From: Kaistia terrae
Lineage (GTDB): Bacteria > Pseudomonadota > Alphaproteobacteria > Rhizobiales > Kaistiaceae
Assembly: GCF_026344005.1 (NCBI RefSeq)
Contig: NZ_JAPKNH010000007.1
Location: forward strand, 124,001-188,000
Direction: 5' to 3'
Length of the DNA: 64,000 bases
Notes under the pieces: generated by a model
Seen by the model: only the letters and a program-made list of their open reading frames with translations
Told to the model about the DNA's origin: nothing
Database searches by the model: none
Translations under genes and position numbers: made by a program
Shown here: in pieces, positions 1,539 to 5,980 of the stretch
How the letters are laid out: the number at the start of each line of letters is the position of its first letter
Position numbering within the stretch: the first letter of the stretch is position 1

Positions 1539-1630
1539 GAAACCTGCGACACTCGGCTCCGAACGGTTGTCCTCCTTATCCGAACTGCCCGTTGACGCCA
1601 AGCCGCCAGAGGCATATCAAAAAACACATC

Positions 1631-1693
1631 TACCGTGGTCTATTTGAGCCGACCGGCTTGCCGCCACGTTAAACAATGTCGCTAAAAGGTCGG
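1631..1693 (+). ncRNA. SAM-II riboswitch aptamer upstream of metZ
   Basis: The stretch carries the hallmarks of the SAM-II (metA motif) RNA. P1 pairs CGTGG (1634-1638) with CCACG (1664-1668), followed by GTTAAAC and the conserved 3' GCTAAAAGG (1681-1689). The loop segment CCGACC (1649-1654) is complementary to GGTCGG (1688-1693), giving the expected H-type pseudoknot. Downstream is the SAM-cycle gene metZ, the usual context of this class. SAM binding should lower metZ expression. Identification is by eye. Confidence 0.88.
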
Positions 1694-1721
1694 TTGCCGG
1701 AAATCCGACATCCGATTTTTG

Positions 1722-1743
1722 CCCGACCTCGCGTCGGGTTTTT
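1722..1743 (+). terminator. Intrinsic terminator / attenuator between the SAM-II aptamer and metZ
   Basis: CCCGAC (1722-1727) pairs with GTCGGG (1733-1738) around a 5-base loop, followed by five T. It sits 20-40 bases before the metZ start, so it would stop transcription before the gene. Its 5' arm CCGACC (1723-1728) can instead pair with GGTCGG (1688-1693), the same bases that close the SAM-II pseudoknot. Ligand-free RNA could therefore form an antiterminator. Confidence 0.7.
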
Positions 1744-1764: not shown

Positions 1765-2961
1765 ATGTCCGAAGCCAAGTCCAAACGCCCCCGCCGCCCC
1801 GCCACCGACCTCGTGCATGGTGGCGTCCTTCGATCGCAATTCGGCGAAATGTCCGAAGCGATGTTCCTGACCCAGGGCTTCGCCTACGACACCGCCGAAG
1901 CCGCGGAAGCGCGCTTCACGGGCGAGGATCCGGGCTTCATCTATTCGCGCTTCTCCAATCCCACCGTCGCGATGTTCGAAGAGCGGATGCGCCTGCTGGA
2001 GGGTGCTGCCGCCGTGCGCTCGACCGCCAGCGGCATGGCCGCCGTCACGGCCTCGCTGATGTGCATGCTGAAGGCCGGCGACCACGTCGTCGCCGCCAAG
2101 GCGCTGTTCTCGTCCTGTCTCTACGTCGTGGAAGACCTGCTGCCGCGCTTCGGCGTGCAGTCGACGCTGGTCGACGGCACCGATTTGAACCAGTGGCGCG
2201 ACGCCGTGCGGCCGAACACCAAGGCGTTCTTCCTCGAAAGCCCGACCAACCCGACGCTCGAAGTGCTGGACATCGCCGAGATCGCGAAGATCGCGCATGA
2301 GGGCGGCGCGCTGCTGATCGTCGACAACGTGTTTGCCACGCCGATCTGGCAGCAGCCGATCAAGCTCGGCGCCGACGTCGTCGTCTATTCCGGCACCAAG
2401 CATATTGACGGCCAGGGCCGCGTGCTCGGCGGCGTCATTCTTTCGGCCGATGAAGCCTATGTCACCGACCACCTGCACAATTTTCTGCGCCAGACCGGCC
2501 CGACCCTGTCGGCCTTCAATGCCTGGGTTCTGCTGAAGGGCCTGGAGACGCTGGATATCCGCGTCCGCCGCCAGACCGAGAGCGCGGCGAAGATCGCCGA
2601 CGTGATCGCCGCCCATCCGAAGATTGCGCGGCTGATCTATCCCGGCCGCGCCGACCACCCGCAGGCCGACGTGGTCAAGAAGCAGATGGGCGCCGGCTCG
2701 ACGATGATCGCCTTCGAGGTCGATGGCGGCAAGGAAGCGGCGTTCCGCGTCGCCAGCGCGCTGGAGGTCATCACGATCTCCAACAATCTCGGCGACGCCA
2801 AGAGCCTGATCACCCACCCCTCGACGACGACGCACCAGCGCCTGACCGAGGAAGCCCGCCTCGGCTTCGGCATCACGCCGGGCATGCTGCGGCTTTCGAT
2901 CGGCCTGGAGGATCCCGCCGACCTGATCGAGGACATCCAGCTGGCGCTCGATCAGGCCTGA
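1765..2961 (+). CDS. metZ: O-succinylhomoserine (or O-acetylhomoserine) sulfhydrylase
   Basis: PLP enzyme of direct sulfhydrylation: an activated homoserine ester plus sulfide gives homocysteine. The 398 residues match the Cys/Met metabolism PLP family (fold type I). ESPTNP is at 158-163, DNVFATP at 187-193, and YSGTKHIDGQGR holds the Schiff-base lysine K212. The start is ATG 1765, preceded by GGGATAAG. Transcription runs through the SAM-II riboswitch and terminator, so high SAM should shut it off. It ends in a strong terminator. MetZ is the usual name in this order, but metA in this window carries the acetyl-type residue 111, so the true substrate may be the acetyl ester. Confidence 0.9.
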   Translation: MSEAKSKRPRRPATDLVHGGVLRSQFGEMSEAMFLTQGFAYDTAEAAEARFTGEDPGFIYSRFSNPTVAMFEERMRLLEGAAAVRSTASGMAAVTASLMCMLKAGDHVVAAKALFSSCLYVVEDLLPRFGVQSTLVDGTDLNQWRDAVRPNTKAFFLESPTNPTLEVLDIAEIAKIAHEGGALLIVDNVFATPIWQQPIKLGADVVVYSGTKHIDGQGRVLGGVILSADEAYVTDHLHNFLRQTGPTLSAFNAWVLLKGLETLDIRVRRQTESAAKIADVIAAHPKIARLIYPGRADHPQADVVKKQMGAGSTMIAFEVDGGKEAAFRVASALEVITISNNLGDAKSLITHPSTTTHQRLTEEARLGFGITPGMLRLSIGLEDPADLIEDIQLALDQA

Positions 2962-4743: not shown

Positions 4744-5691
4744 CTAGGCGGCGACCTCCGCCGCCTCGCTCTGGCCGATGCGGCTGATGTCGAACGGCAC
4801 CGTCTGGTAGATGTCGTTGATCCAGTTGCCGAACAGCAGATGCGCGTTGCCCCGCCAGTTGTTGACCGGCGGCTGCGACGGATCATCCTTGCGGAAATAG
4901 CCGGCCGGAATCCCGACCTCGACCTTCGCCGCCACGTCGCGGAAATACTCGTCACCAAGCGAATTGGTGTCGTATTCGAGATGGTTGAACATGTGCAGGG
5001 CGCGATGGCGGGGGTCGGCGAGCAGACACAGCCCCGTCGCGTCGCTCTCCGCCAGCACGATCACGCCGCTGTCGCGCGGGATCTCGCTCTTGCGCACTTC
5101 CGACCAGCGCGACACCGGCACGGTGAACTCATCGGCCAATCCGCGCAGAAAGGGCGAGGCCGAAGCCGAGGCCGGAACCTGATGCGGGAAGATGCCGAAC
5201 GCCTTCGCCGGCAGATCATATTTCTGCATGCCGTGGAAATGATGCACGGCCGCCTGCGCGCCCCAGCAGATGTTGAACGAGCGATGCACATGGGTCTGCG
5301 TCCAGTCGAAGATGCGGCGCAGCTCGTCCCAGTAGGTCACTTCCTCGAACGGCATCCGCTCGACCGGCGCACCGGTGATGATGAAGCCGTCGAAGCGCTC
5401 GTCCTTCACCTCTTCCCAGGGGCGGTAGAAGGAAAGCATATGCTCGGCCGACGTATTGCGCGGGGCGTGATCGGTGATCTGGACAAGCGACAGCTCGATC
5501 TGCAGCGGCGTCGCGCCCAGCAGGCGCGCGATCTGCGTCTCCGTGCTGATCTTGTTGGGCATCAGGTTGAGCAGGCCGATCTTCAGCGGCCGGATATCCT
5601 GGCGCATCGCATCCGCCGCGCGCATGACCATGACGCCTTCGGCTTCAAGCTTGCGGCGGGCTGGCAAATCGTCGGGGATCTTGATCGGCAT
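4744..5691 (-). CDS. metA: Homoserine O-acyltransferase of the MetA family (acetyl-type residue 111)
   Basis: Activates homoserine by acylation, feeding MetZ. The 315-residue protein starts at MPIKIPDDLPARRKLE, the standard MetA start; the open frame continues 68 codons upstream through the riboswitch. The catalytic cysteine is C142 in FNICWGAQAA, and HMFNHLEYDT (232-241) carries H237 and E239. Numbering by C142 matches E. coli MetA, and residue 111 is Glu (GAPVERMPFEE) where E. coli has Gly. Published work on this family links Glu111 to acetyl-CoA and Gly111 to succinyl-CoA, so this is probably a homoserine O-acetyltransferase. It is preceded by a SAM-I/IV-like riboswitch. Confidence 0.92.
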   Translation of the reverse strand: MPIKIPDDLPARRKLEAEGVMVMRAADAMRQDIRPLKIGLLNLMPNKISTETQIARLLGATPLQIELSLVQITDHAPRNTSAEHMLSFYRPWEEVKDERFDGFIITGAPVERMPFEEVTYWDELRRIFDWTQTHVHRSFNICWGAQAAVHHFHGMQKYDLPAKAFGIFPHQVPASASASPFLRGLADEFTVPVSRWSEVRKSEIPRDSGVIVLAESDATGLCLLADPRHRALHMFNHLEYDTNSLGDEYFRDVAAKVEVGIPAGYFRKDDPSQPPVNNWRGNAHLLFGNWINDIYQTVPFDISRIGQSEAAEVAA

Positions 5692-5757
5692 TTCGGCATC
5701 GTCCTGTCTGGAAGAGCCGACGCTTTTGTGTGACTGGGTCCGTTTGGTTGCCGGATC

Positions 5758-5839
5758 GGCCACATCCTCCCTTGCGGGAGTGCCACCTTGCCCGGAAAGG
5801 CAGGTTGGCGTCGGGCGTCGGCCCAACTCTTGATGTAGC
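5758..5839 (-). ncRNA. SAM-I/IV-type riboswitch aptamer upstream of metA
   Basis: Read on the minus strand, P1 is GCTACATC (5839-5832) with GATGTGGC (5765-5758), 8 pairs with one GU. Inside come ATCAAGAG, a P2 with GTTGG/CCAAC arms, a P3 opening with CCAACCTGCC and closing GGGCAAGGTGG, and a P4 CTCCC-GCAA-GGGAG. The order and the AUCAAGAG and CAACC...GGUG joints match the SAM-I/SAM-IV superfamily, whose variants occur before methionine genes in this order. Between aptamer and start codon, GCGTCGGC (5723-5716) is complementary to GCCGACGC (5822-5815) inside P2, a possible expression switch. The sub-class is less certain than the family. Confidence 0.75.
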
Positions 5840-5980
5840 TCATGATTTATCCGAGCCAAGGCCCGTTGGCAACAGGGTCCAGCAACGGCTGCCATCGAGA
5901 CGATCGCAGGGCGCGGTCGGGATAGAGGCCTGGGATGAAACGCGAACTCAAGTGCGGGCTCGGCTTAGCCCACACGCTCG

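Follow-up and report, generated by a model that had tools for sequence, protein, structure and literature searches.

The metZ leader of Kaistia terrae joins a SAM-II aptamer to a terminator hairpin that has its own 5′ arm, and in the computed fold this terminator stands beside a second hairpin, in which the 3′ strand of the aptamer pseudoknot pairs with a separate C-rich arm. Aptamer, second hairpin and terminator recur across the genus, and in Kaistia the aptamer and the terminator seem largely uncoupled. The leader was analysed within the window, a stretch of 64,000 nucleotides, and its features lie on the + strand. We tentatively read it as a SAM-II OFF switch, presumed to bind SAM, that comes from the alpha-proteobacterial stock of attenuators and was modified in Kaistia; taken whole, this explanation falls a little short of an even chance.

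A covariance search with the Rfam SAM-II model (SAM_alpha, RF00521) matched positions 1625–1705 (+) at 59.5 bits (cmscan, cut-off 36, E 7.5e-11), the only SAM-II match in the genome at E ≤ 0.001. This bears out the first-pass annotation, which had recognised a SAM-II riboswitch on metZ from the letters. The gene at 1765–2961 (+) encodes an O-succinylhomoserine sulfhydrylase, with a product above cut-off for both NCBIfam families, NF005696 (703.1 bits, cut-off 675) and TIGR01325 (559 bits, cut-off 510.05). Membership of RF00521 is supported by the score, by this methionine/SAM gene downstream, by the P1 stem, formed by 1634–1639 with 1663–1668 (Rfam alignment and MFE fold, letters checked), and by the complementarity of P2. 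In P2, the pseudoknot of the SAM-bound form, the 5′ strand is the CCGACC of the aptamer loop (C1, 1649–1654) and the 3′ strand lies in G1 (AAAAGGUCGG, 1684–1693); CCGACC and GGUCGG (1688–1693) match exactly, as had been claimed, and the duplex of 1647–1656 with 1685–1694 was computed at −13.2 kcal/mol. Besides C1, G1 has two possible partners further downstream, C2 and C3.

C3 is the CCGACC at 1723–1728, in the 5′ arm of the terminator, which had been proposed to compete with C1 for GGTCGG. Hexamers and T tract lie exactly at the claimed positions, and the three hexamers are the sole + strand copies of these strings within 1601–1800. The match was discarded as stand-alone evidence because GGTCGG followed after 10–40 nt by CCGACC is expected 0.56 times per window by chance; it was found once, at least one copy arose in 40 of 100 shuffles, and CCGACC is itself overrepresented in the window (117 copies against 65 expected). 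Whichever reading holds, a single matching hexamer is insufficient to establish an antiterminator. The leader as a whole stands above chance, since the aptamer match is accompanied by a fold of 1631–1747 with a z of −2.71 (3 of 200 shuffles equally good) and by SAM-II matches in all 14 genomes of the genus.

The terminator was confirmed between aptamer and metZ, on sequence evidence, as a hairpin at 1721–1739 (5′ arm 1721–1727, 3′ arm 1733–1739; −11.0 kcal/mol at L001, the window's locus; folds, letters checked) that runs into a tract of five U at 1739–1743. A pattern scan for terminators is not above chance when taken alone: it returned 2 sites over 2.3 kb, where 2.0 are expected. Kaistia terminators are somewhat weaker than those elsewhere (−11.0 to −16.7 kcal/mol against a median of −17.9). 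Their U run, interrupted in L008, has five residues in nine of the 11 distinct segments, six in one and three in one, against a median of six elsewhere.

The partner of G1 that the first-pass annotation had missed is C2 (CCGAUUUUU, 1712–1720), an extra C-rich arm identified from the folds, the Kaistia alignment and the checked letters. It pairs with 1685–1693 and, together with an inner stem, forms H1 (1685–1720), a putative SAM-free hairpin ending at 1720, directly before the start of the terminator at 1721. The MFE fold of the window leader contains H1 and the terminator together. Folding of the window RNA at every length, using a nearest-neighbour model that ignores pseudoknots, ligand and polymerase, revealed H1 as the optimum for transcripts ending at 1714–1728, followed at seven lengths (1729–1735) by the antiterminator G1:C3, at −16.4 to −16.8 kcal/mol against −15.4 to −15.9 for H1, a margin of at most 1.4 kcal/mol. 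From 1736 on, H1 plus terminator was optimal, reaching −26.9 against −16.8 kcal/mol for transcripts ending at 1740–1747. H1 is thus the terminator-compatible helix and G1:C3 the exclusive one. Because H1 forms first, the antiterminator would be transient at best in the window RNA, a step that we infer from the succession of optima and not from a simulation. The energy of H1 was matched by 6 of 300 shuffles in the window and by at most 14 of 300 in each of nine distinct Kaistia segments, and the sequence of its inner stem varies among Kaistia species with the pairing kept.

The same architecture was found through the genus. G1 is identical at all 14 Kaistia loci, save for one extra A in L002, C2 and C3 are both present in 14 of 14 aligned leaders, and the aptamer columns of these leaders are mostly identical. 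When the nascent helix of G1 was enforced, the terminator still folded in nine of the 11 distinct Kaistia segments. The helix was exclusive in the remaining two, the window's segment (common to L009, L010 and L014) and L007, and in both the nascent optimum is the antiterminator of the first-pass annotation; L011 and L013, which belong to the same MetZ clade as the window, do not favour it. The arms are not strictly private in L004, L005, L006, L008 and L012, because there the most stable terminator, either isolated or with G1 blocked, takes its 5′ arm from C2 instead of C3, and in L004 and L012 the best fold through the start codon with G1 free lacks H1. Covariation of the three hexamers within the genus was set aside as uninformative, since 1649–1654 and 1688–1693 are invariant in Kaistia. 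The pairing of 1688–1693 with 1723–1728 is poorly supported as the SAM-free structure of this genus, given a separate arm for G1, a terminator that coexists with its helix in most segments, and an optimum in the window that is just transient. A simple three-way switch is doubtful in Kaistia.

We tentatively prefer, at somewhat less than even confidence, a toggle of G1 between P2 and H1. With SAM bound, 1688–1693 would be locked in the pseudoknot with 1649–1654; with SAM absent, G1 and the A residues preceding it would pair with C2 as H1. The terminator would fold in both states by means of its own 5′ arm, and would most likely act as an attenuator that is largely SAM-independent or only kinetically modulated, rather than as the strict output of a G1:C3 helix. 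H1 would keep C2 off the ribosome-binding region, and SAM, by releasing C2, may allow it to pair with 1749–1754 and so reduce translation in addition to constitutive termination.

The candidate target of this last step is G3 (UCGGGA, 1749–1754), the probable Shine-Dalgarno region of metZ 10 nt before the AUG, with which C2 could pair while G1 is engaged in P2. In the window, the predicted probability of C2:G3 pairing was 0.00 with G1 free and 0.49 with G1 blocked, a mimic of the SAM-bound state. Over the genus, 13 of 14 leaders showed pairing of C2 with the Shine-Dalgarno region at a probability of 0.4 or more when G1 was blocked, and 11 of 14 gave less than 0.1 when it was free; L013 lacks this pairing, and L004 has it in both states. 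In shuffle controls, only 5 of the 14 leaders had a pairing that no more than 10 of 200 shuffles reached, and in the window C2:G3 pairing was not above shuffles (67 of 200). The total pairing of the Shine-Dalgarno region barely shifts between the two states, from 0.71 to 0.81 in the window. SAM might control translation through this pairing, a possibility at which the folds weakly hint.

RF00521 matches were found in the family (26 of 28 genomes) and the order (244 of 297 sampled genomes). Anchoring yielded 167 leaders, duplicates included (118 plus 49 more), with the weak matches L015–L017, L031 and L199–L201 excluded from the counts; anchoring failed at 8 of 57 order loci and at 18 of 80 named metZ loci, of which L081, L085, L102, L136 and L141 show recognisably SAM-II-like sequence with the anchor in variant form. 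Other Hyphomicrobiales leaders resemble those of Kaistia in the aptamer and in a pseudoknot 3′ strand complementary to the 5′ arm of the terminator. They differ in that the two hairpins are often mutually exclusive, whereas Kaistia has two C-rich arms 3′ of G1. Among 118 distinct non-Kaistia segments, a count that pools metZ with other SAM-II-led genes and ignores relatedness, the nascent G1 helix excluded the terminator in 56, was partly compatible in 19 (seven of them from Mesorhizobium), fully compatible in two (L124 and L191) and weak in two. No terminator was found in the other 39, which is an overcount, L117, L120, L131 and L140 having been scored without a terminator in one search and with one in another.

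Own G1 strands paired with own terminator arms at a mean of −9.66 kcal/mol, against −9.07 (sd 0.18) for permuted arms, a difference reached in 1 of 2000 permutations over 61 distinct non-Kaistia rows, with kinship ignored and with the clearly mispicked arms of at least L051, L053 and L073 kept in. Loop, G1 and terminator arm change together in L139, L143 and L156. The covariation in relatives on which the first-pass annotation had staked its switch is thus suggested by the leaders outside Kaistia, with kinship ignored, and within Kaistia the invariant G1 strand allows no signal. A shared-arm antiterminator is a sound description of much of the group; the idea fits the relatives and suits Kaistia poorly.

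Two kinds of leader outside Kaistia depart from the shared-arm plan. In L124 and L191, the G1 hairpin and a separate terminator are fully compatible, perhaps through independent uncoupling. At ten metZ loci (L088, L090, L099, L107, L112, L115, L119, L121, L134 and L137), three of them titled Beijerinckiaceae, a SAM-II leader was found with no intrinsic terminator, although a second search gave a doubtful one for L088. Folding of the first 75 bases gave G1 at least six downstream pairs in L090, L099, L115, L119, L134 and L137; L107, L112 and L121 fell short of this. These ten leaders may be translational.

The order-wide data favour the switch first proposed for the window, in which SAM-free RNA would be read through because 1688–1693 pairs with 1723–1728 as an antiterminator, and SAM would lock 1688–1693 and free the terminator. 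Own-arm pairing beyond permutation, the three-way co-changes and the many exclusive helices outside Kaistia all argue for it, as does the nascent optimum in the window, and the indications of transcriptional control from relatives and from Sinorhizobium meliloti metZ count against a P2/H1 toggle. Within the genus, however, the antiterminator is favoured in only two of 11 distinct segments and not even throughout the window's own clade, and H1 precedes it, leaving it optimal for just a few transcript lengths; we consider this switch unlikely in Kaistia, though a serious competitor. SAM could instead control the terminator kinetically through H1, with no G1:C3 helix, if the adjacent H1 hinders terminator folding or if H1 and its U-rich arm pause the polymerase. 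The abutting ends of the two hairpins and the presence of both arms in every aligned Kaistia leader would suit such a mechanism, which we nonetheless hold to be improbable: hindrance finds no support in the computations, which predict that the adjacent helices fold together.

Loss of regulation, leaving a constitutive terminator and an aptamer without read-out, would account for a terminator compatible with the nascent helix of G1 in nine of 11 segments, and for U runs mostly shorter than elsewhere and interrupted in L008. Yet most aptamer columns are identical across all 14 leaders and H1 is kept despite sequence change in its inner stem, which suggests selection on the leader and makes such a loss very improbable.

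A tree of MetZ proteins (31 rows, midpoint root) bears on the origin of the extra arm. L025 branches beside the 14 Kaistia rows as their sister (support 100/99 for the two together, 95/91 for Kaistia), and its leader has one hairpin arm common to antiterminator and terminator; at all 12 family loci L019–L030, the terminator with the G1 helix kept scores below 0.5 (0.03 to 0.50), including three borderline values of 0.46 to 0.50. Because of this single shared arm and these low scores, the extra arm looks derived, and the second C-rich arm is probably a Kaistia innovation, with the alignment leaving it ambiguous which of the two Kaistia arms matches the one in L025. A SAM-II attenuator with a shared arm could have gained a second C-rich arm on the Kaistia stem, giving the terminator its own 5′ arm and uncoupling it from the aptamer; the old arm would have become the ligand-free partner of G1 in H1 and, once freed by SAM, would sequester the region of metZ where ribosomes bind, placing the platform between transcriptional and translational control. 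In its entirety this scenario is a conjecture to which we assign a low probability. If the terminator is uncoupled, Kaistia and its shared-arm sister lineage form a natural before-and-after pair for a change of output with the sensor kept; otherwise, the leader simply adds to the known SAM-II attenuators.

The SAM-II riboswitch described from a Sargasso Sea metagenome belongs to the gene metX. It shares its aptamer class and pseudoknot with the Kaistia leader, and differs in that the pseudoknot hides the Shine-Dalgarno sequence, probably for translational control (PMC9373788). The premise of the first-pass annotation, that SAM-II elements are discussed mainly as translational switches, is wrong: in alpha-proteobacteria, terminators are linked to SAM-II more often than to any other class (PMC2258182). 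Nor is a transcriptional SAM-II leader on metZ new, because SAM-dependent termination has been predicted for S. meliloti metZ, which like Kaistia has an intrinsic terminator between aptamer and gene (PMC9373788). The same source describes RZ, the sRNA of ~100 nt from this S. meliloti metZ riboswitch, as more abundant in rich medium, with promoter activity changed too. In Kaistia, the pseudoknot strand probably pairs with a separate arm when SAM is absent. The S. meliloti metA leader is also similar, having a validated terminator 3′ of the aptamer for which the authors predicted no SAM response; that terminator lies between two AUG codons, with the Shine-Dalgarno sequence inside the riboswitch, whereas the Kaistia terminator precedes the metZ start (PMC9373788). 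Judged by titles and abstract openings, a literature search for Kaistia and riboswitch returned nothing on this leader, and a phrase search on transcriptional-to-translational evolution of expression platforms gave no match.

Other SAM sensors were observed in these genomes. The window carries a SAM-I/IV element (RF01725, 63.5 bits) at 5734–5841 (−), before metA (start ~5691, ORF 4744–5895, −), so that a second SAM riboswitch class lies 4 kb from the SAM-II on metZ. RF01725 occurs in seven of the 14 Kaistia genomes, exactly the window's clade in the MetZ tree, and also in the family genome G019; its downstream gene was examined solely in the window, and the element does not lie close to metZ in G007 and G011. 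Weak SAM-II-like elements of 27–32 bits, below the cut-off of 36, occur in three Kaistia genomes and in relatives (L015 (−), L016 (+), L017 (−) and L031 (+) at 1501–1574; L199–L201). Downstream of the weak element in L015–L017 lies a 25-aa ORF that carries a C-R-x-x-R-N motif close to its end, possibly marking a variant SAM sensor whose leader peptide contains cysteine.

An ATG at 1676, upstream of metZ, opens a 64-aa ORF that was rejected as a leader peptide, being present in just 6 of 14 Kaistia leaders. Further upstream, between a dCTP deaminase gene (287–1372, −) and metZ, a long inverted repeat with the ends CCTCTCCCT and AGGGAGAGG occupies approximately 1415–1537 of the window, and L010, L013 and the far end of L001 carry similar stretches.
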